NCBI RefSeq assembly: GCF_003665155.1 | Contig: NZ_RCFQ01000018.1 | Coordinates: 1-57,941 of the forward strand | DNA: 57,941 bases | Source of the DNA: Mariprofundus sp. EBB-1 | GTDB lineage: Bacteria; Pseudomonadota; Zetaproteobacteria; Mariprofundales; Mariprofundaceae | Direction of reading: 5' to 3' | Part shown: positions 7,655 to 28,590 of the stretch, piece by piece | How the letters are laid out: the number at the start of each line of letters is the position of its first letter | Position numbering within the stretch: position 1 is the stretch's first letter | Position numbers and translations under genes: made by a program | The notes under the pieces: model-generated | Databases searched by the model: none | Told to the model about the DNA's origin: nothing | The model's input: only the letters and a program-made list of their open reading frames with translations

Positions 7655-7720
7655 CGACTGTCCTTTTGTGGCCGGTTTCAGCCATTCAAACAATTCTGGT
7701 CTAATGTACCACGATATGCT
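7655..7720 (+). repeat. 66-bp direct repeat, right copy
   Basis: This matches 861-926 at 56 of 66 positions, same orientation. The comM-like reading frame begins where this repeat ends (ATGCTTTTTACAGG), so the repeat end coincides with the 5' truncation point of the comM fragment. Confidence 0.7.
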
Positions 7721-8042
7721 TTTTACAGGTTCGCCGGGTGTTGGTAAAAGCATGTTGGCACATCGATTGCCCGGTATAATGCCGCCCTTAACGATGCAGC
7801 AGGCACTTGAGGTTACACGTATTTATAGTGTATCCGGTGATACTTCCCGACCTGCAATGAGCAGACAGCCGCCATTGCGGCAGCCGCATCACTCTGCTTC
7901 CGATGTGGCAATCATTGGTGGAGGAAGTAACCCGAAACCGGGTGAAATATCCAAGGCTGATCATGGCATTCTATTTCTTGATGAATTGCCAACCTTCCAA
8001 TATTACCAGTATTCAAATCAAGGTCGTCAATACACGCCCTAA
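7668..8042 (+). pseudogene. comM: comM 5'-proximal fragment (Walker A and B region), truncated at both ends
   Basis: From about 7711 to 7997 the frame encodes the AAA+ start of ComM: Walker A GSPGVGKSMLAHRLPG, the conserved QPPLRQPHHSASD segment, then GGGSNPKPGEISKADHG and Walker B ILFLDELPTF. Similarity ends at codon TTC (7995-7997), and the frame then runs through unrelated codons to a stop at 8042. The N-terminal Lon-like domain, about 200 residues in full-length ComM, is missing; the 66-bp repeat lies in its place. The remainder of the gene resumes at 32983. ComM is a branch-migration helicase for natural transformation, so this strain probably lacks it unless a second copy exists. Confidence 0.88.
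7995..8007 (+). repeat. Island left-end inverted repeat / recombinase site candidate
   Basis: TTCCAATATTACC at the left comM junction is an inverted copy, 12 of 13 positions, of GGTATTATTGGAA at 32934-32946 near the right junction. A further direct TATTGGA copy lies at 8287-8293. Such short repeats at both ends of an island carrying tyrosine recombinases are expected of attachment-site arms. Confidence 0.45.
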
Positions 8043-8100
8043 GTGTCCGTTTATAAACAAAATATTCAACCTAAAAAAGTTCGCCTGCCACTCTGAATAT

Positions 8101-8258
8101 TGCATTAAATGCAAGTATGTTCTGAGCATTAGAATTTCCACCTATCACTTAAAAAACCTTTCAGTTCAAAAGGTTACGTTTAATGCAAAGTTCACCTATC
8201 CTCTTAATGCCAACATGCGGGAATCACGCATTAAAAGATTGACTATTGCATTTAATGC
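8101..8258 (+). promoter_or_regulatory. Cluster of GCATTA/TAATGC palindromes upstream of the recombinase operon
   Basis: Two palindromes, TGCATTAAATGCA (8101-8113) and TGCATTTAATGC (8247-8258), plus half-sites near 8124, 8180, 8214 and 8228, lie in the 300-bp non-coding leader of the integration operon. A second repeated word, CCACCTATC or TCACCTATC, occurs between them. The arrangement suggests a cooperative operator or accessory recombination site, with the small HTH protein of the operon as the likely binder. This is inference. Confidence 0.4.
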
Positions 8259-8332
8259 GGATATCATGCTCCTCATGCAAGTTAGATATTGGAGATTCCG
8301 CACTGGTGAATTAAGTCGATTAGGAGGCAACC

Positions 8333-9472
8333 ATGCCTCGTAAGCACGTGCAGGTTGTCCAAACTCAAGCCAACCCTCTTAATATTCCTGAAAAGGAGCA
8401 AGCCCTACTGAATGCCATCATCAAGGGTTATGAGCAGCGCAGACTCGGTGCATTGAATCATACTGAGAAAGCAGTCCAAGGTGATTTAAGGACGCTGAAT
8501 GATTTCCTGACTTACATCCAGAAAGCTCCCTGGAATGCAGATGAAGACGATTTTGATGCTTGGTGCTACCACATTGGTATCGAACGGAAGCTCGCAACTG
8601 AAAGTCAGAGAAAGTATCAGACAGCTATTCAGCAGTTTTTTAGATACTTCGCCAACAATGTGAAATTTCGTGCTGAAATCATGAATAGCTTTGGCGTGCA
8701 GGCTCGCCAGATCGTCACAGAAGAAAATAAGATCCCCCATAAGAATGAAAACCAGAATACGAATGAACGTCCTGCTTTTACACATCTACAGATTGAACAG
8801 TTCTTTGATACTATTGATGAACAGATAGTCGAAGCATACAGATTCAGATCCAAAGAGTTTTTAATACTGCAGCGTGATAAAGCCATGTTTTATGCACTTT
8901 ACATTTTAGCATTGAGGAATTCAGAGTGCTGTGGGCTAACTACTAAATCCTTTAGAGAAAATCCTGGTACTCCAGAGTTTGGTGATTTTGGTTTTGCCAC
9001 AGTATTTGGAAAAGGCAGTAATGGTAGTGGTCCCAAAATTCGAACCGTTCCTGTAGACAATGTTAACTTACCTCCAATTCTTCAATGGTATGTTGATGAG
9101 GTTCGCCCCAGATTCCTTGAAAAACCGCACTGTGACCCGAACACAGAAGTATTCTTTTTGACTGAACGTGGCACTCACCTGAGTCCAAAGAGCCTTATTT
9201 ATCGTTTCAATAAAATTTTGAAATATGCCGGTCTTGAAGGCTTGGGCTTTGTTCCACACTGCCTTAGACACACATACACAACCCATGCGGCTGAAGCGGG
9301 CTATAGTGTTGAATACAGCAGGCGCAAATTGGGACATGAATACTCGGCAACCACACAGGGTTATACCCATTGTGGTGATGAGTTCGTAAACAAACAACTC
9401 AATGAATACAACAGGTCACAAATCGATAACGCATTACAAAGTAAAGATACCAACGGAGGAGGGGAAAAATGA
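8333..9472 (+). CDS. Tyrosine site-specific recombinase (integrase)
   Basis: The 379-aa enzyme cuts and rejoins DNA at attachment sites. An N-terminal SAM-like core-binding region (about 20-115) precedes the catalytic domain. Visible catalytic residues are Arg195 (LRNSEC), His309 and Arg312 (HCLRHT), His335 (LGHE) and the nucleophile Tyr344 (GYTH). The ATG follows GATTAGGAGGCAACC, an excellent ribosome site. It overlaps the next gene by four bases, and a third recombination-type gene follows, so the three form one integration operon at the extreme left of the island. It is the obvious candidate for insertion into comM. Confidence 0.93.
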   Translation: MPRKHVQVVQTQANPLNIPEKEQALLNAIIKGYEQRRLGALNHTEKAVQGDLRTLNDFLTYIQKAPWNADEDDFDAWCYHIGIERKLATESQRKYQTAIQQFFRYFANNVKFRAEIMNSFGVQARQIVTEENKIPHKNENQNTNERPAFTHLQIEQFFDTIDEQIVEAYRFRSKEFLILQRDKAMFYALYILALRNSECCGLTTKSFRENPGTPEFGDFGFATVFGKGSNGSGPKIRTVPVDNVNLPPILQWYVDEVRPRFLEKPHCDPNTEVFFLTERGTHLSPKSLIYRFNKILKYAGLEGLGFVPHCLRHTYTTHAAEAGYSVEYSRRKLGHEYSATTQGYTHCGDEFVNKQLNEYNRSQIDNALQSKDTNGGGEK

Positions 9473-9861
9473 AAATAATATGGAACCTTAGAGTAATGAT
9501 GGCACAGCATGATATTAGATCTGCTACGGAACTTGCTCGCCAATTGGATGCACGGGGCGTTGAGATATCCACCGCTCAAGTAACCAGAATTGTTAACAAG
9601 ATGCCTGACAGAATTAGTGTTACTGTTTTACGTGGGCTAATGGAAATTTTTCACTGCTATCCCAATGACCTGATTGTTGTTGAACATGATGAGCCTGAGA
9701 ACTCAAATGCACCGGTAAGCAGAATACATGCTGACAAAGGCGCAGCTATACCAACCGCCAAACCAAAAACCAGACAAAAAAACACTGAACCCAGAGAAGT
9801 AGATAATGTTTTATCTCTTACTGGTGGGAAGGCTCGACCTATGCCTGTAAAAGGACAGTAA
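9469..9861 (+). CDS. Small XRE/Cro-type HTH protein of the integration operon
   Basis: Residues 1-70 of this 130-aa protein look like a Cro/C1-type helix-turn-helix (SATELARQLDARGVEISTAQ, then VTRIVNK). The C-terminal half is Pro/Lys/Glu-rich and probably disordered. It is translationally coupled to the recombinase (ATGA) and followed six bases later by the zinc-ribbon recombinase-like gene. Likely roles are directionality factor or autorepressor acting on the palindrome cluster upstream; neither is proven. Confidence 0.75.
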   Translation: MKIIWNLRVMMAQHDIRSATELARQLDARGVEISTAQVTRIVNKMPDRISVTVLRGLMEIFHCYPNDLIVVEHDEPENSNAPVSRIHADKGAAIPTAKPKTRQKNTEPREVDNVLSLTGGKARPMPVKGQ

Positions 9862-9867
9862 ATAACA

Positions 9868-11790
9868 GTGTGTATCAATTCCGTTCTTCCGTGTGATTTC
9901 TGTGACCGCCCTATGATAGGGCGCGTCTATTCATTCAGGAATGCACCAAAGAATGGGTTCTGCAAAGGGTGCTATAAGAAGCTTCCTAAAGTTTCTTGTT
10001 CAACCTGTGGAAAGGAATGTAACACGATGCCTCAAGACAACTTCATTTGTCATGGCTGTAAAACCAAATCACGAATATGTACCCATTGTGGTGAAAGTGC
10101 ATATTCAGGTGGAAGAATGATTGATGGAAAGCCTGTTTGTGCAAAATGTGCTTACAGGGTGCTTGTAAAGCGACCATGTGCTATTTGTCACAATGACTTC
10201 ACTGGAACAGCCGACTGGCCAGAAAGCCGGCCAATGTGCCCGTCCTGCAGGGAGAGAGTAAAGAAAGCCAAACCATGTGCACATTGCGGTACTTACAGCC
10301 TGTTTACGCAAGCTGATTCAGCGGCCGGTATCCATGAATCTATTTGCCCAAGCTGCAGGAAAAATGCTCGCATTACATGTCCAGGGTGCCACAAACATCG
10401 AAGCCCGGAAGCTCTTGATTCTCAGGGACGGCAGATATGTAAAAAGTGCCATGAACGTGGAACGAATCCATTTATCTGCCCTCAGTGCGGAGAGAAAGGA
10501 GTAGCGCATAGCAAGACCAGATGCGAAGACTGCTACTGGCGCGACTACGCAATTAAGCGAGTTATCCGCTGCCAAGCCCTATTGAGTAACGAGTGGACCA
10601 AAGAATGTTTTGCGGATTTCATTCAATCACTAATGGAGCTGCAGACTCCCAATTATGCTGCAATGAAAGTCGAACAGTATTTCCCTTTTTTCATGAAGGT
10701 CGATACTATGTTTACGAGCCGTGACTCAGTTTGCGGTCAGAAGTTACTAAAAACCTTTGGGCCGAATGGTCTCCGTATATTTACAACTCCGTATGACTAT
10801 CTTGCAAGTCTTGGGATATTCACACCACTAACCCGCGATGAAATCCGAGCCGAAGCGGAGAAGCGCCGTCAAAATATGTATGTAACTCAGGCACGTGGAA
10901 AATGGTTTGAAAAGGAAATGATCGCCTTTCAAGAGCACCTTGAAACCATTGCAAAGCGGTATGCTGATCGCGGATGGAAAGGAAAGAATGCTCGGTTCAG
11001 GCCAAGAACCTTATCTAGTGCTCTGCAGGTAGCAATCCGATTTTATAATCATGTCGATTCATGTGGAATTATTAGCCATAGGCAAATCCATCAGGATATT
11101 GTTGATGGGTTTATTTTCCAAAACCCCGGCTATAAACAGCCACTGCGCACACTTGTCACCTACTTAAACAGGCACGGAAAAGTGTTCAGGAAATTGAAAA
11201 TTGAGATGGTTAATTTAAACATCCCAACAGATATGTTTTTAGCCCCTGACAAATGCAATGAGCTAATTAAAAACTGGTTATGCTCTGAGGGAAAAGAAAC
11301 CAAGAAAGGAGTGATTGGCATATTCATGCTCATGTATGCCCAGCAGCCAAGCAAGCTTGTACGACTTCGCATGTCAGAAATCCAAAGAAATGAAAAGGGC
11401 ATTTATAGCGTAGCTTTCGGATCAACTGAACTTGAACTTGATCCAAGAATTAGCGCCTTGTTTGACAGGTATTTGGAACACCGTCATGCACTTTCCATGA
11501 TGGAAGACGACCTTCAGAATGAATGGTTGTTCCCAGGGCGGAAATATGGCTGCCACATGACTTCTTCAGCCGTATCATACGCTCTAAAAGATATGGGAGT
11601 TTCCGCAGACCAGTTGTTTGCAACATCAATTTACAACGCATATCAATCAGGTATGCGACACCCAAAAGTGTTAGTAAATGCTTATGGAATCTCGACACTT
11701 ACTGCCATCAAATACTTAAAGTTGCTGGATCCGCGCATGTACGATGAAGCAGATTCCGCTAGCCGGTCACAGCAGTATGTCGCAAACTGA
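9868..11790 (+). CDS. Seven-zinc-ribbon protein fused to a degenerate tyrosine-recombinase-like domain
   Basis: GTG start; 640 aa. Residues 9-222 contain fourteen CxxC pairs (C9/C12, C32/C35, C44/C47 and so on to C219/C222), which pair into seven consecutive zinc ribbons. The rest has a core-binding-like helical region (about 230-460) and a C-terminal part resembling a recombinase catalytic fold (IFMLMYAQQPSKLVRLRM, LFPGRKYGCHMTSSAVSYAL, SGMRHPKVLVNAYG). The usual first Arg (G-L-R-x-x-E) and the HxxR/H/Y set are not present in canonical form, so it is probably non-catalytic or very divergent. Its place third in an operon with an active recombinase suggests a DNA-recognition or targeting partner, comparable in layout to multi-recombinase transposons. 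Confidence 0.75.
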   Translation: MCINSVLPCDFCDRPMIGRVYSFRNAPKNGFCKGCYKKLPKVSCSTCGKECNTMPQDNFICHGCKTKSRICTHCGESAYSGGRMIDGKPVCAKCAYRVLVKRPCAICHNDFTGTADWPESRPMCPSCRERVKKAKPCAHCGTYSLFTQADSAAGIHESICPSCRKNARITCPGCHKHRSPEALDSQGRQICKKCHERGTNPFICPQCGEKGVAHSKTRCEDCYWRDYAIKRVIRCQALLSNEWTKECFADFIQSLMELQTPNYAAMKVEQYFPFFMKVDTMFTSRDSVCGQKLLKTFGPNGLRIFTTPYDYLASLGIFTPLTRDEIRAEAEKRRQNMYVTQARGKWFEKEMIAFQEHLETIAKRYADRGWKGKNARFRPRTLSSALQVAIRFYNHVDSCGIISHRQIHQDIVDGFIFQNPGYKQPLRTLVTYLNRHGKVFRKLKIEMVNLNIPTDMFLAPDKCNELIKNWLCSEGKETKKGVIGIFMLMYAQQPSKLVRLRMSEIQRNEKGIYSVAFGSTELELDPRISALFDRYLEHRHALSMMEDDLQNEWLFPGRKYGCHMTSSAVSYALKDMGVSADQLFATSIYNAYQSGMRHPKVLVNAYGISTLTAIKYLKLLDPRMYDEADSASRSQQYVAN

Positions 11791-12073
11791 TAGCTGGTGG
11801 CTATATATGCTCGAATGCAGGGGCGGCGGTATTTATGTTGGCATAGCCAAAGATGTTGAAAAGCGGTTCAAGGTACATGAATCCGGACGCGGGTCTCTGT
11901 TTACCAAAATTAATACTCCCATCCAAATTATCGCGAAGGTAAAAGTTGGGTCCCATGGAGATGCCATACGAGTTGAAAGGGCCATGAAGAAACTCACGCC
12001 CTATGAAAAGCGGCAGTGGTGCAATGCATTAGGAACAGATGGTAGAGATATCCCAATAAGCTCTATGTTTTGA
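11777..12073 (+). CDS. GIY-YIG domain protein (YhbQ/UPF0213-like)
   Basis: The 98-aa product is a stand-alone GIY-YIG domain: WWLYMLECRGGGIYVGIAKD with the GIY and Y-GI elements, then Arg in VEKRF and VHESGRGS. The family includes small nucleases of uncertain role. ATG 11777 gives the normal domain start; ATG 11744, 11 codons earlier, overlaps the upstream gene more deeply. It sits at the end of the integration operon, and its 3' end overlaps the convergent DUF3037 gene by 45 bp. A second, chromosomal relative is encoded at 37315. Confidence 0.8.
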   Translation: MSQTDSWWLYMLECRGGGIYVGIAKDVEKRFKVHESGRGSLFTKINTPIQIIAKVKVGSHGDAIRVERAMKKLTPYEKRQWCNALGTDGRDIPISSMF

Positions 12074-12835
12074 GATATCGATTACGGTTGCAACTGACTG
12101 TAACCGATCTATGTAGTTAGCTCTCTTCGCCGATGGCGTATCACAAAGCACAACACATCTTTCTTTATCAAGGAACCCAGTTTTCTGTGCCTCACTAAAT
12201 GTATAAATGGCATCGTTAACTTTTGCATCCAATGCTGCAACTCGAGCATTCTGGAATCGAATTTTTTTAAATCCTACTCGTTTCTCACCACCAAGATAAT
12301 AATCGAGGGTGAATACAATAGGTGATGCTCCATTTTCAGGATCAATAGTAACTTCAACATCTCTATCAAATTCAGGATAAAAGATAATTTCAGCCCTGTG
12401 CAGAATTTTCTCTAGAAGCTCTTTAAATCCTTCTTTTGGCCCGCTCGGGGGCTTACCTACCAGTTCTTCAAAAAGTTCGGCTAAAGCAGTCTCAGGGTGC
12501 TCTCCAGTCGTTTCATAGTATCCACCCTTGGTGGATATGAAATGAAGTGTCTGATTCTCTAATTCACTAAGTTCAGCGTTAATTCTCTCTCTGTTTCCTT
12601 CAGACTCCATGCAAAGAGACTTAAACCACTCAATCCACTCTCCAAACACCCAAAGGCTTTCTCGATAATCGGGGCCTGCAATTGAGGAATAGCCATAAAG
12701 CTCAGCTCGTTCCACACCATCAAGCATTCCAATTGCCTTAAAGCCAGCCCATGAGCCGTCAAATGCAATTACACCAATATTCTTTCCCTCTTCACGCAAT
12801 GGGTTGCGAGAAAACTGGATGAGCCGGTATTCCAT
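12029..12835 (-). CDS. DUF3037-family protein, partner of a HipA-like kinase
   Basis: The 268-aa protein begins MEYRLIQFSRNPLREEGKNI and contains the DUF3037 hallmark GVIAFDG. The function of this family is unknown; members are typically encoded beside HipA-like kinase proteins, as here. The chosen ATG (12835) follows an AGGTGG site within the end of the upstream gene; an in-frame GTG lies six codons earlier. The C-terminal third (AKVNDAIYTFSEAQKTGF) shows no recognisable motif. It is the last gene of a three-gene minus-strand operon. Confidence 0.75.
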   Translation of the reverse strand: MEYRLIQFSRNPLREEGKNIGVIAFDGSWAGFKAIGMLDGVERAELYGYSSIAGPDYRESLWVFGEWIEWFKSLCMESEGNRERINAELSELENQTLHFISTKGGYYETTGEHPETALAELFEELVGKPPSGPKEGFKELLEKILHRAEIIFYPEFDRDVEVTIDPENGASPIVFTLDYYLGGEKRVGFKKIRFQNARVAALDAKVNDAIYTFSEAQKTGFLDKERCVVLCDTPSAKRANYIDRLQSVATVIDISKHRAYWDISTICS

Positions 12836-12840
12836 GATGT

Positions 12841-13572
12841 TTATGTAGTCCACCTGATCACATCCTCATGATCAGCAATAATGTGAAGAAGTCGTTTTTT
12901 TCTGTATGCCAACGCAACCCCAAGTTTCTTCTGCATGGCTACATCGACAGTATTAATTGGCCTCCCAAACTCGCAGCATTCTTTGATAAGGTAGTTCCGT
13001 GTTTCTTTAATACGCCGCCCCCAATGCAGTAGCCTTTCATGAGAGACATGGCCATAAAATGTGTGCTTCTTAGCGATTAAGCTATCTGACATAAGTAACT
13101 CGACAGCCTTATGGGGCTCGTGCCATGGGTGAAGAAGGGCATGGCTGTGGTCAAAAGCAGTGAATATATCCATATGCGGAGTGAAAAGGCTGACTTTTAA
13201 GTTCTGATACCGATCATTATTACCAATTAGTATATCGAATACGATAAGAGCAGCTACATAATCAGGGTAAAGTTTTGCAGCTCCTGAGATCCATGACTTG
13301 CGTATGTTTGGAAGAGATATACCTGGGCTCGCAATCTCCAAGCTGGCAAATGAAGTAGATCCAGAGGTGTCAGCAAGAACTCCTGCTGCATTAGGTATAT
13401 GTAGTGTCTGAGCAAGATTTGTAGCTACTTTTTCGTTATACACACATTGAGGAGATTCTACGTTATCAGCTTTTAGAACTGCATTCATAGCGCAAAATCG
13501 AGGGCTAGTAATTCCGGTTGGGCCGCGTTTGTAAATGCGGCGCACTGAATAAATAGGATTGCTTTTGCTCAC
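12841..13572 (-). CDS. HipA-like kinase-fold protein (HipA_2 type)
   Basis: The 243-aa protein is a compact HipA-like domain, shorter than classical HipA (about 440 aa) and lacking its N-terminal extension. Kinase-like signatures are GNNDRYQNL (Asp120, Asn124; catalytic-loop analogue) and TAFDHSHAL (Asp141; metal-binding loop analogue). A basic N-terminus (YSVRRIYKRGPTG) holds the glycine-containing segment. HipA toxins phosphorylate a translation target; the substrate of this short form is unknown. It overlaps DUF3037 through close coupling and lies 31 bases after an XRE gene, a hipBA-like order. Confidence 0.72.
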   Translation of the reverse strand: MSKSNPIYSVRRIYKRGPTGITSPRFCAMNAVLKADNVESPQCVYNEKVATNLAQTLHIPNAAGVLADTSGSTSFASLEIASPGISLPNIRKSWISGAAKLYPDYVAALIVFDILIGNNDRYQNLKVSLFTPHMDIFTAFDHSHALLHPWHEPHKAVELLMSDSLIAKKHTFYGHVSHERLLHWGRRIKETRNYLIKECCEFGRPINTVDVAMQKKLGVALAYRKKRLLHIIADHEDVIRWTT

Positions 13573-13603
13573 AAGTTATTCAGCCCCATGTAAACTATTA
13601 TAA

Positions 13604-13867
13604 TCAGCCTTTCAGAGCAGAATACTTCTGAAGCTTTGGTTCGGCCCGTTCTACAAATTCAGCCAATGTCACATCACAGGCATTACAAATATCGTAGATC
13701 TCAAGCATATCTAGCCGGCGCTCGCCCAATTCATACTTGCTTACATACGTCTGTGGCCTTTTTAACTTCAAGGCCAATTCAGTCTGTGTTTGATTACTTT
13801 CTTTGCGTATATCACGCAGTAATTTCCATAGAAATTCCTGTCGTGCGCTCCATTTATCTCGATCCAT
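13604..13867 (-). CDS. XRE-family HTH regulator (HipB-like)
   Basis: The 87-aa protein has a Cro/C1 helix-turn-helix (TQTELALKLKRPQTYVSKYE, then LGERRLDMLEIYDIC). The start chosen, ATG 13867 (MDRDKW), matches usual family length; an upstream in-frame start at 13933 would add 22 atypical Tyr-rich residues and run through a probable operator. It heads the minus-strand operon with the HipA-like and DUF3037 genes and is the likely autorepressor/antitoxin-type member. Confidence 0.8.
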   Translation of the reverse strand: MDRDKWSARQEFLWKLLRDIRKESNQTQTELALKLKRPQTYVSKYELGERRLDMLEIYDICNACDVTLAEFVERAEPKLQKYSALKG

Positions 13868-13891
13868 GCAATGCACGGTATCTTTATACTT

Positions 13892-13916
13892 GTAATACCC
13901 TATTTTGGGGTAATAA
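13892..13916. promoter_or_regulatory. Candidate operator between the XRE operon and the lipoprotein gene
   Basis: TAATACCC and GGGGTAATA flank a TATTTT centre, an imperfect inverted repeat in the divergent spacer. It lies immediately upstream of the chosen XRE start and would suit autoregulation by that protein. Confidence 0.35.
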
Positions 13917-13954
13917 TATCTGCCATCAAACAACTAGTTTGGAGGGAGTATTTT

Positions 13955-14551
13955 ATGAAAAAATTATGGAGAGTGTTGGCAATTGCCTCAATCGCTCTTA
14001 TCACAAGCTGTGCTAGTGTCGCACCAACAACTGAAACTTACACTGGATATCGAATATATCATGTATCAAATGACTACAACTTAACTCAGGTAAGAAATGC
14101 AGTTGTTGATGCAGCAAAAGAATTAAACAACAACGCACAAGTAGTGAGTGGAATACCACCTCATCCAATGCCTGAAAAACCTGGTCGTTTCCAGATCAAA
14201 GATATGGCTTTTGGGCCTGTGACAATGCAGTTCCCCCAAACACCAGGAGCGACTGTTTCCGTTCGTTCAGGCAGCGATAATTCTTCACGAGGTACTAGTA
14301 TGAATTGGGTTGCAGGTATTTACCCATATAAAGACGGCTATTCAGTTCAATTAGTAATGACAGCGAGGCATCAGAGAGGTGCATCTAATATCTTTGATCC
14401 AGCAGCACTTGGCGCAGCTTTGGCGCGTGCAACACTTGATTCACAAGATGGTGGAATAGAAGGTAATACAAAAAAATGGTTTGATATGTTCTCAGATGAA
14501 ATCGGTAAAAAGGTGAAAATGAAGTTGGAAGAGTCTTATCCACAAGGTTAA
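13955..14551 (+). CDS. Secreted lipoprotein, unknown function
   Basis: ATG 13955 has a strong GGAGGGAG ribosome site. The 198-aa product begins MKKLWRVLAIASIALITSC, a lipoprotein signal peptide with lipobox ITSC, followed by a soluble domain rich in Gly/Ser/Asn. I do not recognise a family. A good intrinsic terminator follows at 14694. It is transcribed away from the HipA-like operon. Confidence 0.75.
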   Translation: MKKLWRVLAIASIALITSCASVAPTTETYTGYRIYHVSNDYNLTQVRNAVVDAAKELNNNAQVVSGIPPHPMPEKPGRFQIKDMAFGPVTMQFPQTPGATVSVRSGSDNSSRGTSMNWVAGIYPYKDGYSVQLVMTARHQRGASNIFDPAALGAALARATLDSQDGGIEGNTKKWFDMFSDEIGKKVKMKLEESYPQG

Positions 14552-14587
14552 TTTATTCATTGTGGCTTGCTGTGATCGCAATCCGAA

Positions 14588-14605
14588 AGAAGCAACGTTG
14601 CTTCT
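14588..14605. repeat. Perfect 18-bp palindrome
   Basis: AGAAGCAACGTTGCTTCT is a perfect palindrome between the lipoprotein gene and its terminator. It could be a hairpin within an untranslated RNA or a protein-binding site. Confidence 0.5.
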
Positions 14606-14693
14606 ATTGATATAGCTAAGGCATTCAGTGAAAAGGTTAATGGGCGATAAGGGCTAACCTAGGCTATTGTAAAAGGCTTCGCAGGAAAGCTAA

Positions 14694-14720
14694 GGCAGCG
14701 GTAATCCGCTGCCTTTTTTT
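14694..14720 (+). terminator. Rho-independent terminator
   Basis: GGCAGCGG, loop TAAT, CCGCTGCC, then seven T residues: a textbook terminator for the lipoprotein transcript or a short RNA preceding it. Confidence 0.85.
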
Positions 14721-14747
14721 ATGCTGATTGCATATTGTGGCGTTGGA

Positions 14748-15056
14748 TTATTTAAGAGAGCGTATTGATGAAAGAATTGTTTTTAACTTTCTTGCTCCTT
14801 CTGGAGATCCATCCCATAAGCGATATACTTCGTTAAAAACGCTAATTAAAGAATCAGTTGCAACTGTTGATTTCAAATCAATCATTGCTTCTTTTGATAG
14901 CTTTTTAGCAATTTCTGATTTGCTCGTGAACTGACCTGAAAAAATACGATTAATTTGCCCCTGAGTGCATTTATGTTTTATAGCAATATCAGTTTGGGTC
15001 ATTCCTATCTCTTCGTAGTGCTTTCGAAGCTTTTGACCTATACTTTTATAGTTCAT
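14748..15056 (-). CDS. HTH regulator, divergent from the DNA methyltransferase
   Basis: The 102-aa protein carries an XRE-type helix-turn-helix (MTQTDIAIKHKCTQGQINRI) and a C-terminal helical extension ending SSIRSLK. An AAAGGATTTC ribosome site precedes ATG 15056. Its promoter region, shared with the methyltransferase, contains two TATGCGCATA sites, so it is probably the controller of both, comparable to the C proteins of restriction-modification loci. Controller role is inferred from position and operators. Confidence 0.78.
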   Translation of the reverse strand: MNYKSIGQKLRKHYEEIGMTQTDIAIKHKCTQGQINRIFSGQFTSKSEIAKKLSKEAMIDLKSTVATDSLISVFNEVYRLWDGSPEGARKLKTILSSIRSLK

Positions 15057-15069
15057 GAAATCCTTTATA

Positions 15070-15101
15070 TATGCGCATAATTATGGTACTATATGCGCAT
15101 A
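15070..15101. promoter_or_regulatory. Twin TATGCGCATA operators between regulator and methyltransferase
   Basis: The palindrome TATGCGCATA occurs at 15070-15079 and again at 15092-15101. The repeat distance of 22 bp is about two helical turns and suits cooperative binding of two dimers on one DNA face. The sites fill the 63-bp divergent spacer and must overlap both promoters. Confidence 0.75.
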
Positions 15102-15119
15102 AAGGCTGGAGGGCAACAT

Positions 15120-16415
15120 ATGGATTCGAATGAATTAACAACTTTACAGAATTTTGATCTGAACAGCTTTATCTCCAGCCAATCTCTTGAGGAGCCGTCA
15201 AGCACAGCCCAAGGGACCAAAGGTGTATCCTTTCAGCGTTGGTATAATTTCAAGGAAGCCTTCTCTCCCAAGCTTGTGTCAGATGTTGTGAACTCTATGG
15301 ATACGCGCCCAAGGCATATTTTAGATCCATTTGGCGGATCGGGAACAACGGCAGTCACATCACAATTTTTAGGGGCTCGTCCAACTACCATAGAGGTAAA
15401 TCCATTTTTGGCCGATTTGATTGAATCTAAACTGACTCAATACAGCATTAGCAACCTTCGGCATGATTATGCGCATATATGTGATGTGGTCAGAGAGATT
15501 CACGTGGATATAACCACCATCTATGCAGGTGCTCCCAAGACATTATTTGAACCAGGGAATAAAGATCGATGGATATTTGATAGACCGGTGATAGAACGTA
15601 TAGCCCAGTATTTAGAGGCAATTAATCAACTAAATGAAAATCACAAACGTCTTTTCAAAGTAGTCCTTGGGGCAACTCTTATCGGCTTAAGCAATGTTCA
15701 TATTGATGGAAAAGGACGTCGTTACAGAAAGGGGTGGGAGAATAGACGTAAGGATGCGATGCATGTTGATGATGCATTCCAGTCTCAATTTGAAATAGTG
15801 TTTTTTGATATCTGTAAATTCCCGCATAGAGCAGAATGGGATTATGAACTCCTCCGGGGAGACTCAAGAGACAGGATCGCAGAGTGCAACATGACCGACT
15901 TGTGCCTCTTTTCACCTCCATATCCAAATTCCTTCGACTATACAGATATTTATAATGTTGAATTGTGGGCTCTTGGCTATTTTAGAATCGGTGAAGACAA
16001 CAGAAACCTTCGAGAAGCAACGCTAAGATCACACGTTTCAATTGTAAGGGAGCAGGCAAATGCTCCAGAATCAGAGACACTTTTAAAAACATTAAAGGAT
16101 CTCAATGCTGTTCGAAGTGAGCTGTGGAGTAAGCACATTCCTGAAATGGTTGGTTCATATTTCTCCGACATGGCCCGTATCTTGGCTGGATCAAGAGCAT
16201 GTCTATCAGATGAAGGAGAAGTCGTCGCTATCGTAGGAGATAGCTGCTATGCGAACGTCTACATTGACGTCCCAAGAATTCTATCTGAATTGGCCCCAAG
16301 AGCAGGCTTAATTCAGGTAGAAAAATTTGAGGTTCGATCAATGAGATCTAGCGCCCAGCAAGGGAGAAAGAAAATGTTGGGTGAATGGCTTCTTAAATAT
16401 AAACCGGTTTACTAA
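15120..16415 (+). CDS. Site-specific DNA methyltransferase (SPPY motif, amino-group type)
   Basis: ATG 15120 (MDSNEL) has an ideal GGAGGG site; an earlier in-frame ATG at 15093 lies inside the operator and is rejected. The 431-aa protein has SAM-binding motif I, DPFGGSGTT, at Asp69 and catalytic motif IV, SPPYPNS, at residues 265-271. SPPY is typical of N4-cytosine enzymes, though N6-adenine activity cannot be excluded. About 190 residues separate the motifs and may hold target recognition. It converges with the PD-(D/E)XK gene, overlapping by four bases, and probably marks host DNA against that system. Confidence 0.9.
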   Translation: MDSNELTTLQNFDLNSFISSQSLEEPSSTAQGTKGVSFQRWYNFKEAFSPKLVSDVVNSMDTRPRHILDPFGGSGTTAVTSQFLGARPTTIEVNPFLADLIESKLTQYSISNLRHDYAHICDVVREIHVDITTIYAGAPKTLFEPGNKDRWIFDRPVIERIAQYLEAINQLNENHKRLFKVVLGATLIGLSNVHIDGKGRRYRKGWENRRKDAMHVDDAFQSQFEIVFFDICKFPHRAEWDYELLRGDSRDRIAECNMTDLCLFSPPYPNSFDYTDIYNVELWALGYFRIGEDNRNLREATLRSHVSIVREQANAPESETLLKTLKDLNAVRSELWSKHIPEMVGSYFSDMARILAGSRACLSDEGEVVAIVGDSCYANVYIDVPRILSELAPRAGLIQVEKFEVRSMRSSAQQGRKKMLGEWLLKYKPVY

Positions 16416-17488
16416 TCCACGGTCGAATAAGCAGATCCTGGCTGAGAGCGTCTGAAATTTTTAGAAGAGTTGTACAGAATATAATGCCTTAATATGACGT
16501 TTTTATCATCTGCTACACCAGACACTTCGTCCATGATTTCTTTTGAGGCATCTTTTCTTGCATCATAGCAACACAGGTACCCAAGTTTTGCGTCCCATTT
16601 GTTTCTATAAATATCAGCTTGATCCACGCCATCTACTAGTGCTTCTTTAGCGTACTTGACAGTATACTGGGTTGGATTATCACTTTCTGAATATGCATAT
16701 GATTTGATAGCCTTTAATTCAAGTAATGCATAGCGATGAAAATTGTGATTGGATAACTTTTGCTCAATAAGAAGATCATATCGTCCAACTTGGGATGAAC
16801 CTTCCTTTGCAACAAGGCTTTTGTCAAAATAGAAAGAAAGGGCGACTTTTAACAACTCTTGTATCGTTTGCTCTAAATTCTCTCCAGGAATATATTTTTC
16901 TGGTTTAGACCAGATTCCTTTTGAACAGCTTGGTGTTAAAACTTGAGTTTCATGAAAATGTTTAAGGGCAATATCAATTTCAGCTTCAGTAGCATATTGA
17001 ACATAGTGTATTTCATATTGTTTGAGAGATGAATCATCTTCTATTCCATCTGGATACCAATGAATTTTGTTCTGACTTAATGAAACTATTACCGTAGGGG
17101 AATCTTCAAGGTTGTTTTCATGAATATAATGATCAATATCGCCTATAGATGTAATGGCTGTGTTAATTGAATATGCAGCCCCTAGACTGGGAGTTGTAAG
17201 AAATATTTTCCCCTGAATATCAATGTTGTAATCAATATTAAAACTAATGTGTTTGCTAGTGTCGAGATTCGATGCGGTCTTTCTTAATTGATCAATATTT
17301 ACAAAAGCGCAGCAATCAGGAGCACCCGAATTTACAGAATGGTTTTCCATATAATTTCTAATGTAATGAGCAATCTCAATTGGTAAAAGACTCGGTGCCG
17401 TTGCATTTGATGAGGGGAGCTCCAGTAAGTCTGAAGCCCCTACAACGTCCTGTAAGATTTCCTTGTTAATTCCACCAGTACACATCAC
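16412..17488 (-). CDS. PD-(D/E)XK nuclease-like effector
   Basis: The 358-aa protein has a C-terminal restriction-endonuclease fold. Visible residues are Glu206 (ENLEQTIQE helix), Asp238 (GRYDLLIE), Glu257-x-Lys259 (ALLELKA) and Gln290 (GVDQADIY), the complete E-D-ExK-Q set. The N-terminal 190 residues match nothing I know and may bind target or partner. It begins within the stop codon of the upstream gene (ATGA), so it is co-produced with the middle component. In context it is likely the DNA-cleaving arm of the ATPase system, opposed by the methyltransferase. Confidence 0.75.
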   Translation of the reverse strand: MMCTGGINKEILQDVVGASDLLELPSSNATAPSLLPIEIAHYIRNYMENHSVNSGAPDCCAFVNIDQLRKTASNLDTSKHISFNIDYNIDIQGKIFLTTPSLGAAYSINTAITSIGDIDHYIHENNLEDSPTVIVSLSQNKIHWYPDGIEDDSSLKQYEIHYVQYATEAEIDIALKHFHETQVLTPSCSKGIWSKPEKYIPGENLEQTIQELLKVALSFYFDKSLVAKEGSSQVGRYDLLIEQKLSNHNFHRYALLELKAIKSYAYSESDNPTQYTVKYAKEALVDGVDQADIYRNKWDAKLGYLCCYDARKDASKEIMDEVSGVADDKNVILRHYILYNSSKNFRRSQPGSAYSTVD

Positions 17489-18141
17489 GCAGCTCTCTTA
17501 GGAAAAGTATCTGCGACTCTGGCAAGGTATTTGAAGTATAAATGAATTTTATCTCGGTTCAGAAATGGAAAAGGACGTTGTGCTAGCTGATCAAAAAGCT
17601 CAGTGGCTTGAAATGAGTAATTATGACGAAGATCCCTCCACTCTCCGAAGTCGATAACTTCATCATTTTTTATATTTGAATCAGAGAAAGTAGCATCTGC
17701 AAATGCGGCGAGTTGTTGTTCCTCATCCTTAAGAGGAGCGTAAGCAGCAACGACTTCACACAAAAAGTTATGAAGAGGTTTGTAACCAACTCGTTTAAGC
17801 GCCTCCCGGACAAGTTGATAGCCGTTATCTGTCAGGCCATATGAGGCATCAATCCAATAGTCTTTTTTATTAATACGGTTATTAGTTGTATCCATACTGA
17901 GGAGGCCACTAATAACCATACGGTCTATATCCCACTGAATATCAGGGTAAAACGGACCACGTTGATCCTTTACTAACGAGCCTTTGCATGGGTCTAAATC
18001 ATACACAGGGGCAAGAGTGTTCGTTAGAAATACGAGACGATGAAAACGTAATTGTGCAATTGGTGCTATGGCATTTCTTTCTACTGCATCCATCAGCAGC
18101 AATAGCCAGATGCGCTGAAAGTAATTTGGAGTATTACTCAT
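17485..18141 (-). CDS. Middle-component-like protein of an ABC three-component system
   Basis: The 218-aa protein (start ATG 18141, GAAGG ribosome site; 18156 also possible) has an N-terminal helical/winged-helix-like segment and the stretch KDQRGPFYPDIQWDIDRMVI, reminiscent of Panacea-type and ABC-3C middle-component domains where a GP-x-x-P motif precedes a helix. The call is based on its size and its place, overlapping the end of a Rad50-like ATPase gene and the start of a nuclease gene. I cannot confirm family membership by eye. A linker between ATPase and effector is the most likely role. Confidence 0.55.
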   Translation of the reverse strand: MSNTPNYFQRIWLLLLMDAVERNAIAPIAQLRFHRLVFLTNTLAPVYDLDPCKGSLVKDQRGPFYPDIQWDIDRMVISGLLSMDTTNNRINKKDYWIDASYGLTDNGYQLVREALKRVGYKPLHNFLCEVVAAYAPLKDEEQQLAAFADATFSDSNIKNDEVIDFGEWRDLRHNYSFQATELFDQLAQRPFPFLNRDKIHLYFKYLARVADTFPKRAA

Positions 18142-20236
18142 TTTCATGGCCTTCATTGAAGCTTGAAAGCAACGCTTCCCAGCTAGGGAAAACTTCCTCT
18201 TTGTATCGATATTCGTAATCTGCTCTGTATTGTTGAATCGAAGCGCTTTCTCGCGCCTCTATTATCAGGTTTATTACTCTTCTTTCTCTTTCATCTCTCG
18301 GAATAACACTTCGTGCCATGGGAAATGGACTTGATGGAGATGATTCATGCCAGCGCTTAACCTCATCTTCCGGAGGAACACCGAATAATGCAGGTATCAT
18401 ATCTTCTTTATTTAGATTTGTGCTTACAATGAGACGATTTCCAGATCCCTTTCCATCATCTGCGAAGCCATTTAGTAACATTCCAGCTTTACCAATAAAA
18501 ATTGAGTCGAGGCTGGCTTCGGGGGTTTCTAAGATCATCATCGCTGCGCTATGAGTAGAAACTGTTTTGATCAGGGCCATTCTAAAGGCAAGGTCAATAA
18601 ATTCAGCTTGAGATTCGGATACACTGTTGCGATCACTTCTTGGCTGCGGACTTTTTGGTGAGGTATTCGAAGTCATTCGAATAGTAAATCTTGGGAACTC
18701 TATTCTTTCAGCATCGTTGGCTACTTTATCCATCATAGGCTGAAATCTTAGTTCACATTTTTCAGCTAGGAAGCTTTGAATGTAATTGTTGAAATTGGTT
18801 TCGATCTCATTGGCAATACCTTTTACCTTTTCAAACCCAATCTTCAACATAGCCTTACTTTCAGTTTCGAGCTGACGCTGGTTTGAAAGACGTTCGTTTA
18901 AGGTTTCTGTGTTATCTTTGACCTGCCTCTTTAAGCGCTCAATTTTATCACTTGAGGTCGGCATCTTAGATTGCATCAGTGCTTCTTTTTCTTGGGCAGA
19001 ACGGAGTTGTTGATTTACATCAAGCTGTTCCTTCAAAAGAGCATCATAATCCGAAGAAATTCTAGAAATTTCCTCATTTAAGCCTTTCAAAGTTTCACGT
19101 TTGTGTTCAATTTCCAACGCGACTTTATCTAATCTTACCGCTTCGATTTTTTGTGTAGGGATTACGTTCTCATGATGTTCAGATGAAGTATCACAAACAG
19201 GGCATTTTCCATCTTCTATTTTTCTGTGAATATGCTCGACAAGTCCAATTTCTCTACTTCCACAAACCAAACAACCAGAACCTGAATCAAGGTTTACCAA
19301 AACATAATTAGCGATGTTTTCAATCGATGGAAATAGGTTTGAAAAATAGTTTTCCTGCAGCTCTTGGTGGTTCCTCTGCTTTTCTTCTAAGTCCAACTTG
19401 GCCCTAGCATGTTTTTGGCGAGCTTCATTTCGATGAACATCAGCCTGAGCAATAGAACCTTCCAGTTCTTTTTTTCTTTCCAAGTGAGCATTTATTTGTA
19501 TTGAGAGCGAGCCAAGCTCTTTGCCAAAAGAATCTCCTTGGCCTTCTTTTTTTAAAGCTTCAAGCAACTCTTTAGAGAGCTTGGATGCATGTGCTTGAAA
19601 GTTTCGTCTATCGGAATCTACAATTTGAATGTTATCTCTTAACTCAGCGAACTTTTTAGCCTCGCCTCTTGGATAGAAAAGTATTCGTAAGATTCCATCC
19701 ATGGCCTTCTTATCCCATATAGAAGATGTTCTGTCTTCAAGAAAAAATACGAGATACTTGAGTACGAAATAAAAATCAAAAAAACTGCCTACATTGGAAA
19801 TTCCACAAACTATATTTTGGTAATGGTTGTGATCTGTTGATTGAGGAACATCATTATGTGAAAACTCTACAATCGATAGATCTTTTAATTTTCTAACAAT
19901 TTCAATTTTATCTTTACCAAATTTTATCGTTGCTGAAACTCGGGAGTTATGAGCTTCATCCATAACTCGTTCAGCAAAGTATTTTTTGTTTTTCCATCCT
20001 GTAAGCATATGTCTTATGTTTCCGATGCCATTGGCCGTGTTGTTTGCTCTCCAGTCACTGGGGCCTACCAACAATCTGAACAATACATTCAGAAGCGTTG
20101 TTTTACCTAATCCATTTACCCCAGCAATTACAGTTACTCCGGGCATAAAGGAATGAGATAGTCCATTGCCATCCTTACCAGGGTATAGCTCATAATTGTC
20201 GATAGATAAATTCGTGATTACTGGAAAGTTAATCAT
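18134..20236 (-). CDS. Rad50/SMC-like ABC ATPase with internal zinc-binding CxxC pairs
   Basis: The 700-aa protein has Walker A GVNGLGKTT (residues 39-47), long coiled-coil regions (about 205-300 and 365-490), and two central CxxC pairs (C322/C325 and C345/C348) at the apex, resembling a zinc hook or ribbon. A modified ABC signature SVSESQAEF (538-546) and Walker B/D-loop MILETPEASLD (Glu570) complete the head. Such ATPases sense DNA ends or structures and drive nucleases. It is first in a three-gene overlapping operon with the middle component and PD-(D/E)XK protein. The closest concept is the ABC three-component conflict systems; pairing with an SPPY methyltransferase gives it a restriction-like look. 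Confidence 0.82.
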   Translation of the reverse strand: MINFPVITNLSIDNYELYPGKDGNGLSHSFMPGVTVIAGVNGLGKTTLLNVLFRLLVGPSDWRANNTANGIGNIRHMLTGWKNKKYFAERVMDEAHNSRVSATIKFGKDKIEIVRKLKDLSIVEFSHNDVPQSTDHNHYQNIVCGISNVGSFFDFYFVLKYLVFFLEDRTSSIWDKKAMDGILRILFYPRGEAKKFAELRDNIQIVDSDRRNFQAHASKLSKELLEALKKEGQGDSFGKELGSLSIQINAHLERKKELEGSIAQADVHRNEARQKHARAKLDLEEKQRNHQELQENYFSNLFPSIENIANYVLVNLDSGSGCLVCGSREIGLVEHIHRKIEDGKCPVCDTSSEHHENVIPTQKIEAVRLDKVALEIEHKRETLKGLNEEISRISSDYDALLKEQLDVNQQLRSAQEKEALMQSKMPTSSDKIERLKRQVKDNTETLNERLSNQRQLETESKAMLKIGFEKVKGIANEIETNFNNYIQSFLAEKCELRFQPMMDKVANDAERIEFPRFTIRMTSNTSPKSPQPRSDRNSVSESQAEFIDLAFRMALIKTVSTHSAAMMILETPEASLDSIFIGKAGMLLNGFADDGKGSGNRLIVSTNLNKEDMIPALFGVPPEDEVKRWHESSPSSPFPMARSVIPRDERERRVINLIIEARESASIQQYRADYEYRYKEEVFPSWEALLSSFNEGHENE

Positions 20237-20602
20237 GCTTCTAACACCTCTCTCCCGATAGGATGAGTCTACTATAGACCATATAGAGGAAACTGTCTTC
20301 TAAGCAAAATAGATAATTGGACTCCAGTTAAAAAACAGTGGGCACAAATCAAGACCCAAAGCGTCGGAAATTGGACTTGCGATTATCATCTAAGCTCCAA
20401 GAGCACTCAGGGTCGAGTAAATATAGGAGGATTATCATGCTTTTATACCATTGATGCCAATTAAAATGCTTATTAAAAGTATAGCACATCACTATTGTTA
20501 CAATATGACTATACTGTAATATGTTAATAGACTGACCTGTTGCTATCATTGAACTTCTGAGTCGATTGCAAATGCAACCTAAACACTGTAATGTAACAAG
20601 TT
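20237..20602. other. Non-coding spacer between ATPase operon and FimB-like recombinase
   Basis: About 365 bases without a supportable gene. AT-rich, with ATTGGACT occurring twice (near 20314 and 20363) and short TGTTACA/TGTAACA words near 20497 and 20594 that may belong to promoter or recombinase sites. The ATPase promoter should lie at its left end. Confidence 0.4.
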
Positions 20603-21142
20603 ATGCGAGATTACCTATTCCCAACTGAAATCGAACGCCTTATCGCCGCTGCTAAGAAGTCACCAAGGCACGGTGTCCGGAACAATCTCATGATTCTTCT
20701 GGCATATCGCCATGGACTGCGTATCTCCGAACTTGTTGACCTTCGACTATCAGATATTGATCTGCAATCTGGGCGCATTAACTGCCGGCGACTAAAAGGT
20801 TCAACTCATAACATTCACCCGTTGGAAGGAGATGAACTACGCTTGATCAAACGATGGCTACGTGTCAATTCAAACCCGCATTCTGAATTCATATTCGTAT
20901 CAGAACGTGGAACACCAATCACCAGACAATCTGCCTGGAGAATTTTCAAAGATGCAGGGGAAAAAGCCGGGTTGGAAGTTAATGTTCGCCCGCACATGTT
21001 AAAACATTCATGTGGCTACTATTTAGCTGATAAAGGTTGTGATACTCGCCTGATCCAAGAGTACCTTGGGCATAAAAACATCCAGAATACAGTTCGATAT
21101 ACACAAACTAATGCAAAGAGATTTGAGGGGCTATGGCGGTAA
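20603..21142 (+). CDS. FimB/FimE-type tyrosine recombinase with HxxK instead of HxxR
   Basis: The 179-aa protein is catalytic-domain only, the size of the fimbrial phase-switch recombinases and of catalytic-only Xer-like proteins. It has the first Arg (YRHGLRISEL), the LGHKN histidine and Tyr in VRYTQTN. The box II motif reads HMLKHS, with Lys (codon AAA) where the catalytic Arg normally stands, so activity may be reduced or lost. It lies just before the left inverted repeat of the metal cassette and may once have moved or inverted a neighbouring segment. Confidence 0.8.
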   Translation: MRDYLFPTEIERLIAAAKKSPRHGVRNNLMILLAYRHGLRISELVDLRLSDIDLQSGRINCRRLKGSTHNIHPLEGDELRLIKRWLRVNSNPHSEFIFVSERGTPITRQSAWRIFKDAGEKAGLEVNVRPHMLKHSCGYYLADKGCDTRLIQEYLGHKNIQNTVRYTQTNAKRFEGLWR

Positions 21143-21273
21143 TTTAAAACTAAGAATTATACCACTTGGCGTTTAGCTGAAATCAACTTGAATCCTTCAC
21201 TCCATTGTAATTAAATTCTGTAGGTTATTACAACCCAAAACGACATCCTGCTGTAAATGGTGACAGGCTGAGT

Positions 21274-21314
21274 TCGGCCAACTTCGGTCAGTCGGAAATA
21301 TAATAATATGAAAG
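21274..21314 (+). repeat. 41-bp inverted repeat, left end of metal-efflux cassette
   Basis: This stretch (TCGGCCAACTTCGGTCAGTC onward to ATGAAAG) matches the reverse complement of 28518-28558 at 40 of 41 positions. The first 20 bases are the module-boundary repeat core; the extra AT-rich 20 bases are shared only by this pair. Confidence 0.8.
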
Positions 21315-21317
21315 ACT

Positions 21318-21515
21318 TCCCCCGCCCCCACTTCATGCAGCACCGGTGGTATGGGCCTGTGGGGTAGTTGCTTCCGTGTGGCTTCAGGCATTATAACAGG
21401 TACGGACGGCAGTCTGTTCGTGGTGGATTTCTACAACTACCGTATTCAGCACTTTGATCATAACGGCCAGTTCATCGAACAGGTCAGTTATCCGAGCCAG
21501 CCGGAGTTGCGGTAA
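21318..21515 (+). pseudogene. NHL-repeat protein fragment
   Basis: An open frame without a proper start reads MGLWGSCFRVASGIITGTDG, then SLFVVDFYNYRIQHFDHNGQ, then FIEQ, and stops at 21515. The D--N-RIQ-F pattern is one blade of an NHL beta-propeller. Only about one blade is left, so this is a remnant of a larger gene, perhaps brought in or cut by formation of the metal cassette whose left repeat abuts it. Confidence 0.65.
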
Positions 21516-21624
21516 GTTACAATGACCAGTTTTATGTGATGGGCTGGGCAAATATCGTATGCAACAGTGGTCTGAATAATCATGCGCGCTTGCAAATGCA
21601 AGATTACTATCTAACGTTCCCCAC

Positions 21625-21939
21625 ATGCGGTATCTGGCATTAATTGCTGTTTTTTCTCTACAACTGGGCATGTTTGTCTGCGGAGCGGGCATTGATGTCT
21701 GTCATGCAGCCGATGCACCTGCTCAAATTCAGCTATCCCCATCACAATCGGATACCGACCATCAGACTGCCCCCATTGAAGTATGTAGCGCCCATGCCGC
21801 GCATACATTCCTTGGCCAGCTAACATTTCAGCCCAACCAACAGGATATGCATATTGAACCAGTCAATCTTTTGGCCTCATTAAACCTTCCTGAGATTTTC
21901 AACTTAATCGAACAACCTCCCAAGTTTTTGCACAGCTGA
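21625..21939 (+). CDS. CzcI-like small exported protein
   Basis: The 104-aa product has a signal peptide (MRYLALIAVFSLQLGMFVCG) and a short His/Cys-containing mature region (EVCSAHAAHTF). Small exported proteins of this sort (CzcI and relatives) commonly precede czcCBA operons and are thought to modulate metal induction. The assignment rests on position and size; sequence similarity is weak by eye. The ribosome site is poor. Confidence 0.5.
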   Translation: MRYLALIAVFSLQLGMFVCGAGIDVCHAADAPAQIQLSPSQSDTDHQTAPIEVCSAHAAHTFLGQLTFQPNQQDMHIEPVNLLASLNLPEIFNLIEQPPKFLHS

Positions 21940-22063
21940 TTTTTTCTGACTGAAGCGCCTGCTTGATCTGTTTATGGATCATGGGCTGAAATTAAAATGT
22001 CTATTTCAGAAATAATCAGCATCCCCATCAATTAATAATTTTTTTCAATCACAGGGGGAAACT

Positions 22064-23308
22064 GTGCGCACACGATTTTTCATAACTGGAATGCTGTTAT
22101 GCATTCACCCATTTTATAGCCATGCACAAAGTTTGCAGGAGGCTATGGATAGTGCTGCCAAACAGCATCCCATGCTGCAAATGGCAGAGCAACAAGTAGA
22201 TATAGATAAAGGCAACCTCGAAGAACAGGGCGCGTATGCCTATAACCCGGAAATATCGCTGGAACCCCAACGCCGTCGCCTCAATAGCGGAGGCACATCC
22301 AATGATTATTATGTTACCCTCTCTCAGGGTATTGAAACGGGCGGCAAACGAGGTTTCAGAGAACAATCGGCTCAGGCCGCACTGAATGCAGCCAACCAGA
22401 GCCGTGAGAGCACACGCCAGCAATTGATGGTAGAGGCGGCTAGATCTTATGTGGCACACTATTTTGCAGGTCAAGCATTTGAACTGCGCAGGCAACAGAG
22501 CGACATGCTTAAAAAAGTCAGCCATGCAGTGGAAAAGAAATTAGCTCTGGGCGAATCCAGTCAGCTCGATGCTAACCTTGCACAATCCGCCTTTGCATCC
22601 GCACTAAATGCTACCACTGCTGCCAGACGGGTATTAACGCAAACAAAACAACGCTACCTGACTGCTTTGGGCAAAACACAAGTAGCGGGAAATATACCGC
22701 AACTGTTACTACCTGCTCTGGATACAGCATGGCAGCCACCGGCAGATGCCTACGAGGTAGCACTTCTATCACGCCCCGATCTTGCGGCCTTGCGTGCAAA
22801 GCAGATGCAATTCGGTGCGCAGGCTGATCTGGCCAGTGCCGCACGTATTCCCGATATAACATTCAGTGCAATGAGCGGGCGAGAAGCGGGCGAGCAATTG
22901 ATCAAGCTGGGTATCTCGGTGCCACTGCCTGTGTTGAATAGCCACCGGGGTGCTTATCGTGCTGCCCTGGCAGAGAAAGAGCGGGTGAGTACCGGTTTAA
23001 AGTGGTCAGAACAGCAACTGAGTTATGCTGTTCAGAGCACATTGGATAACCATGCCAATGCCATGGCCTCGCTGTCGGGTATGATCAAAACAGATATGCA
23101 ACAGCGTGCCAAAGATACCATTTCTCTTGCCCAAAAAGCCTATGATGCAGGAGAACTGGACCTGGAAGAGCTGGTAGTACACATCAGACAAGGGCTCGAT
23201 GCCCGCATGACAGCGCTTGAAATTATTCATCAGGGATGGTTATCCCGTATTCGACTGGCCGAAGTATTCGGTCACCCAGAATATATTATTAAAGGAACTC
23301 AATCATGA
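22064..23308 (+). CDS. czcC: Outer-membrane efflux protein (TolC/CzcC family)
   Basis: GTG start after CAGGGGGAAACT; 414 aa. A signal peptide ending near SHAQS is followed by two repeated long-helix OEP units, with the family-typical GNLEEQGAYAYNPEISLEPQ near the N-terminus and YDAGELDLEELVVHIRQ near the end. It forms the outer-membrane channel of an RND tripartite pump. The stop overlaps the adaptor start (ATGA). Confidence 0.88.
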   Translation: MRTRFFITGMLLCIHPFYSHAQSLQEAMDSAAKQHPMLQMAEQQVDIDKGNLEEQGAYAYNPEISLEPQRRRLNSGGTSNDYYVTLSQGIETGGKRGFREQSAQAALNAANQSRESTRQQLMVEAARSYVAHYFAGQAFELRRQQSDMLKKVSHAVEKKLALGESSQLDANLAQSAFASALNATTAARRVLTQTKQRYLTALGKTQVAGNIPQLLLPALDTAWQPPADAYEVALLSRPDLAALRAKQMQFGAQADLASAARIPDITFSAMSGREAGEQLIKLGISVPLPVLNSHRGAYRAALAEKERVSTGLKWSEQQLSYAVQSTLDNHANAMASLSGMIKTDMQQRAKDTISLAQKAYDAGELDLEELVVHIRQGLDARMTALEIIHQGWLSRIRLAEVFGHPEYIIKGTQS

Positions 23309-24489: not shown

Positions 24490-24499
24490 GGTAAGTACT

Positions 24500-27631: not shown

Positions 27632-27798
27632 TAAGGGTTATATTTTTCTTGGTATTATTAAGTCTGACTAGTTGTATGCTTATGAAACAGGAAGAAGGAG
27701 CGCAGGAATCACAAAATAAACACATGGAGAATTGCCATGGTCCTGATCACCACCATAATGCTAGAGCAGATCATAAAAGTGGCTGCAACAGGAAATAA
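27628..27798 (+). CDS. Small His-rich lipoprotein, probable metal binder
   Basis: A 56-aa frame starts inside the czcA stop (ATGATAA), so it is translationally coupled. It begins MIRVIFFLVLLSLTSC, a lipoprotein signal with lipobox LTSC, and continues into a short His/Asp/Cys-rich tail (NCHGPDHHHN, ADHKSGC). It is probably a periplasmic metal scavenger or delivery peptide for the RND pump. The family is not recognised. Confidence 0.7.
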   Translation: MIRVIFFLVLLSLTSCMLMKQEEGAQESQNKHMENCHGPDHHHNARADHKSGCNRK

Positions 27799-27827
27799 TA
27801 TGTATACCCTAAGCTTAGTGTAGATAA

Positions 27828-28558: not shown

Positions 28559-28590
28559 CTACTGCCGATCATCAGGGGCGGTCGTCGGCC

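Follow-up and report, generated by a model that had tools for sequence, protein, structure and literature searches.

The window analysed here, a stretch of 57,941 nucleotides from Mariprofundus sp. EBB-1, carries a recombinase operon that almost certainly forms the left-hand part of a Tsy transposon of 25 kb, which would move between copies of comM by the TnsF-targeted mechanism proposed below. Tsy was described by Faure et al. 2023 (PMC10293859) with YRec, HTH, TnsF-like and GIY-YIG genes and with the two halves of comM on its flanks. The Mariprofundus element is an additional Tsy and not a new system, and its mechanism is, in outline, already published. In ZooTsy, from Zoogloea sp. LCSB751, TnsF binds comM DNA and the element inserts into comM with high specificity; a 10-bp region at Walker B is required, and the attachment site, which lies ≤40 bp upstream of the insertion, overlaps it (PMC10293859). 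ZooTsy transposition was demonstrated, its activity was impaired on removal of any component (the nuclease being helpful, not essential), and its circular intermediate joins end2 (...AATCCCAGTC) to end1 (AAGTTCTGAT...) (PMC10293859).

The Mariprofundus element runs from 7991 to 32975 on the forward strand (24,985 bp), with the operon at its left end. Its junctions were fixed by comparison with congeners whose comM is intact (L032-L044) and with the insertion in M. micogutta (L017, L054); comM reads ...GATGAATTGCC up to the element, the element reads AACCTTCCAATATTACC ... GGATCTTCCCAGTA, and comM resumes at GGAACATAAACG.... On the left, a comM 5'-side fragment at 7700-7990 (forward strand, codons ~212-308 of ComM/YifB, TIGR00368/PF01078) ends in LDEL-CC, and comM identity, in comparison with M. 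micogutta and with intact comM, drops sharply between CC and AACCTT. End1 and the leader (7991-8332, forward strand) are 80% identical to M. micogutta and carry a CTTCCAATATTACC motif by the terminus, of which inverted relatives are found in the right end. End2 (32955-32975, forward strand) finishes in ...GATCTTCCCAGTA, and its ...CTTCCCAGTA matches the published ZooTsy end2. The comM 3' portion then follows at 32976-33564 on the forward strand (TIGR00368 positions 305-499). When the flanks are joined, comM is in frame and uninterrupted up to its stop, and the insertion point falls within the Pro codon of LDELP, immediately downstream of Walker B. TIGR00368 detects three comM pieces in the genome, covering codons 3-220 (contig C41), 212-308 (7710-8000) and 305-499 (32974-33549). 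There is thus a second comM break upstream, with codons 3-220 on another contig and codons 212-308 beginning in the window at ~7700. The breakpoints (window 7690-7710; L012 1447-1560 on contig C41) share codons and differ in sequence, and a TGGCCG...GCCATTC repeat copy is present near each.

The operon has the Tsy order YRec-HTH-TnsF-GIY-YIG, all on the forward strand. The initial annotation had proposed an ordinary tyrosine recombinase co-translated with a small HTH protein, and both points were borne out. YRec (8333-9472; 379 aa; Pfam and NCBIfam) matches PF00589 (E=1.5e-15) and has the full catalytic set R195, K227, H309, R312, H335 and Y344, the RKHRHY hexad being intact in all nine aligned members. 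An ATGA at 9469 overlaps the YRec stop codon with the start of the HTH_26 protein (9469-9861; E=3.8e-12), which has homologues in other Tsy elements. The tnsF gene (9868-11790) starts with GTG, 7 bases past the HTH stop. The GIY-YIG nuclease gene (11744-12073; PF01541, E=8.2e-10) overlaps the end of tnsF; with the alternative start at 11777 it still overlaps the TnsF stop. Four other Tsy elements carry homologues of it in the corresponding position. The set had been read as a trio; its three ORFs are real, but the fourth gene had been overlooked, as had both element ends and the comM 3' half.

TnsF is a protein of 640 aa made of seven zinc ribbons, a CB-like region and a degenerate recombinase CAT (residues about 455-632). 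Its 14 CxxC pairs, at residues 9, 32, 44, 61, 71, 91, 104, 124, 137, 160, 171, 191, 204 and 219, form the ribbons (residues 9-222), and the count given initially was exact; in 2000 shuffles of the same protein the mean was 2.05 pairs and the maximum 7. Pfam returned only sub-threshold double zinc ribbon models for TnsF, and NCBIfam gave no match.

Five relatives, including one from the same genus, are flanked by comM on either side and share the insertion point. This agrees with the initial proposal that a zinc-array, recombinase-like partner targets integration to comM, as do the position of the window trio at the exact comM junction and the ZooTsy results (PMC10293859). The operon also occurs in M. 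micogutta, inserted at the matching position of comM, with protein identities of 91% for YRec and 86% for TnsF. In four genomes of another family (G405, G994, G1049 and G1060), YRec-HTH-TnsF-GIY-YIG lies downstream of the comM 5' half in the same orientation, and the comM 3' half is found 13-31 kb downstream. Their left junction is LDEL(P); the right junction, read in G405, G994 and G1060, is (T)CCAGTC or CCCAGAC followed by N-GAGTGG. The right terminus is CCCAGT(A/C) in the window element and M. micogutta, and TCCAGTC or CCCAGAC in three more relatives. YRec-HTH-TnsF also occurs at two Variovorax plasmid loci where comM was not detected; GIY-YIG was searched for in the first locus only and was not found there. 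Actinobacterial plasmids encode YRec-HTH with a zinc-array protein that has the same C-terminal region. These trios, in Streptomyces, Rhodococcus and Paenarthrobacter plasmids (L006, L007, L011), have 6-22 CxxC pairs and, where scored, a full YRec catalytic set. A scan of genome contigs returned M. micogutta only, the viral collections scanned gave no relatives, and the phage scan gave two short Acinetobacter records only.

Three further loci were observed. In G057, of the same genus, another module (L063, 1679-7460) interrupts comM at exactly this LDELP codon. It consists of three recombinase-like ORFs (478, 647 and 663 aa) plus a protein of 136 aa and is similar to GInt ginABCD or SE intA-tfp-intB-srap; since the codon is the same, two unrelated recombinase modules use one comM point. 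In an 894-aa protein of G767 (L061, 7-2688), TniQ is joined to a CB-like region and to the zinc array of TnsF; Faure et al. mention a single such fusion, SCZ64694 (PMC10293859). Another zetaproteobacterium, G005, of the same family, has a Tn6022-like TniQ-TnsF pair (L030) and, at the other end of that contig, an ORF resembling the comM N-terminus.

The C-terminal part of TnsF was compared with the YRec profile. The two are collinear over 218 columns (hhalign P=4.7e-5, Prob 68%), and with seven TnsFs over 250 columns (P=7e-5, Prob 63%), the match covering the CB and CAT regions. At the YRec catalytic positions TnsF has Q493, S519, D581, F584, I608 and Y616. The initial description of a C-terminus lacking the standard catalytic residues therefore stands for Arg, Lys and His and fails for Tyr, since Y616 is retained. 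Among eight Tsy-type TnsFs (the eighth, from L084, scored by eye), Arg I and the third-position His are absent from all, Arg II is present in two and Tyr in seven, the exception being G994, with Phe. The Arg I alignment may be shifted by one residue; the window TnsF reads YAQQ there, with no Arg, and an Arg just before this position (YAR) is present only in the two Variovorax TnsFs. In the three Actinobacterial zinc-array proteins, the Tyr position is occupied by W, W and H. AlphaFold models were poor (pLDDT 36 for whole TnsF and 50 for CAT alone, with two input sequences). With the low-confidence CAT model, Foldseek ranked tyrosine recombinases 1-7 among 350,542 PDB chains, including the integrase 3nkh, XerH 5jjv, Tre and Cre, none being significant (best E 0.84), a ranking that is only suggestive of a recombinase fold. 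Searches of PDB sequences gave nothing useful.

The pattern of residue loss suggests that TnsF is, on balance, probably a targeting subunit in the main. "Catalytically degenerate" seems to fit Tsy TnsF better than the published "active recombinase", because Arg I and the third His are gone in 8/8 while the YRec set is complete, and this despite the inactive published tyrosine mutant. Known tyrosine recombinases need both Arg residues. It may be, at a little short of even odds, that Tsy TnsF is no second active recombinase but a recombinase-derived targeting subunit that lost the catalytic Arg family-wide and kept its tyrosine for another role, as a structural contact or as a nucleophile that YRec residues complete in trans. 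A lesser but serious possibility is that TnsF is a working recombinase, YRec and TnsF each cutting one end or one strand pair. Faure et al. concluded this for ZooTsy: they termed the Tsy TnsF CAT active and found catalysis by both YRec and TnsF to be essential, with a mutant named TnsF Y584F (PMC10293859). Retention of the equivalent tyrosine in 7/8 Tsy-type TnsFs speaks for their conclusion; the absence of Arg I and of the third-position His from 8/8 and of Arg II from 6/8, and the natural TnsF in which Phe replaces Tyr, speak against it. If the targeting-subunit reading is true, pairs of a zinc-guided dead recombinase and a live one could form a broad class of modules for targeted integration, not limited to comM, since trios with zinc arrays also occur in Actinobacteria, there without the Tyr.

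The likeness to ZooTsy extends to the operon, the zinc array and recombinase-like part of TnsF, the insertion after Walker B, the flanking comM halves, an end2 of ...CCCAGT and the lack of Tn7 genes in the part examined. The element differs in its Mariprofundus (Zetaproteobacteria) host and in its 25-kb length with metal efflux and defence-like cargo, and its TnsF is without Arg I, Lys, His/Arg II and His III, positions scored in the TnsFs aligned here. It is very improbable that this is instead a multi-recombinase element of the Tn554, RIT or GInt/SE type, even if the operon is short and encodes a small helper besides two or more proteins of recombinase fold, and even if the GinC of GInt lacks the first Arg and the Tfp of SE the RHRY motif. 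There is only one functional YRec here, with a GIY-YIG gene and comM ends; the zinc array is absent from Tn554, RIT and GInt/SE, and TnsF homology and gene order are shared directly with Tsy. GInt (ginABCD) and SE (intA-tfp-intB-srap) likewise combine active recombinases with a recombinase-fold partner without catalytic residues, but they use two or three recombinases, no zinc array and other targets. Their three recombinase-fold proteins and small fourth protein were not found, the operon consisting of one YRec, one TnsF, HTH and GIY-YIG. Tn554 (TnpA-TnpB-TnpC) is a site-specific recombinase module of three genes and lacks terminal inverted repeats; it has two active recombinases, no zinc array and another target, whereas in this operon the RKHRHY set is confined to a single protein, and no resemblance between TnpC and the HTH gene is known. 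Gene content did not fit RIT or the gamma-mobile-trio, the latter giving only a weak GmtY match to the YRec domain.

The Tn6022 family of Tn7-like elements has a homologous zinc-array TnsF and targets the same comM region, but uses TnsA/B/C/TniQ, and its TnsF stops before the Tyr helix; its insertion direction is opposite (PMC10293859). No TnsA, TnsB, TnsC or TniQ was found among the element ORFs scanned in 12-32.6 kb (small ORFs in part), and a Tn6022 identity was rejected. The Tn7-like relatives have shorter TnsFs, and TnsABC/TniQ were found only in L010, L025-L027, L076 and L077. When 17 TnsFs were placed in a tree with IQ-TREE, the Tn6022-type TnsFs were set apart by a single branch (100/99) within the Tsy TnsFs and grouped with the Mariprofundus/Variovorax branch (83/84) and not with other Tsy TnsFs. 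This topology agrees with the view of Faure et al. that Tn7 took over TnsF from Tsy (PMC10293859).

In the window genome, each of the three comM pieces is most similar (75-84%) to its counterpart in the two species G056 and G058, where comM is intact. The comM 5' fragment has 73% DNA identity to M. micogutta, while the YRec DNA is 88% identical. As comM is remote from M. micogutta and YRec DNA is close, two separate acquisitions into the same site are favoured, a reading drawn from pairwise identities. Independent insertion into the same site would imply mobility, and this copy presumably still moves. It is unlikely that the element is a dead relic in a pseudogene, as the second comM disruption on the 5' side and the IS1182 copy within the cargo could indicate, given that the four mobility genes all have open reading frames, that its two ends agree with the ends found in relatives, and that M. 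micogutta probably gained this module in a separate event.

According to the ORF family scans, the cargo begins with a defence-like part (12074-20300) that encodes a HipA-like kinase (12841-13572, reverse strand), a DNA methyltransferase (15093-16415, forward strand) and a Rad50/SbcC-like ATPase (18134-20236, reverse strand) with two unannotated partners. The methyltransferase, the ATPase and its two partners (15093-20236) resemble an undescribed or divergent defence cluster. The second part (20603-31577) encodes a solitary single-domain YRec of 179 aa (20603-21142), similar to FimB/FimE-type invertases and also FimB/XerD-like, CzcC-like/CzcB/CzcA efflux (22064-27631), a cation efflux protein (27828-28430) and an IS1182 transposase (28765-30198, reverse strand). 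Genes without an assigned function are also present in the cargo.

We propose that the YRec-HTH-TnsF-GIY-YIG operon shifts the element from comM copy to comM copy, with YRec cutting and joining the DNA. TnsF, probably a mainly non-cutting subunit, would recognise the comM Walker B coding sequence and seat the recombinase just downstream, so that the element would enter inside the Pro codon of LDELP. The seven zinc ribbons and the degenerate recombinase fold would form the targeting platform, and the ribbons themselves may read the target; Faure et al. mapped the comM site and not the binding domain of TnsF (PMC10293859). The HTH protein would be an indispensable co-factor, and the nuclease would act as an enhancer. 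Circular excision, with an expected junction of CCCAGTA joined to AACCTTCC, would reconnect comM at the insertion point, although it would not give back a whole comM in this strain because of the second break upstream.

This element extends Tsy to the iron-oxidising Zetaproteobacteria, with exact ends and a real cargo of metal efflux and defence-like genes. A further gain is a sharper question for the published Tsy, namely whether TnsF cuts DNA or only picks the site; this bears on the borrowing of TnsF by Tn7-like elements and on programmable recombinases with a separate targeting subunit.
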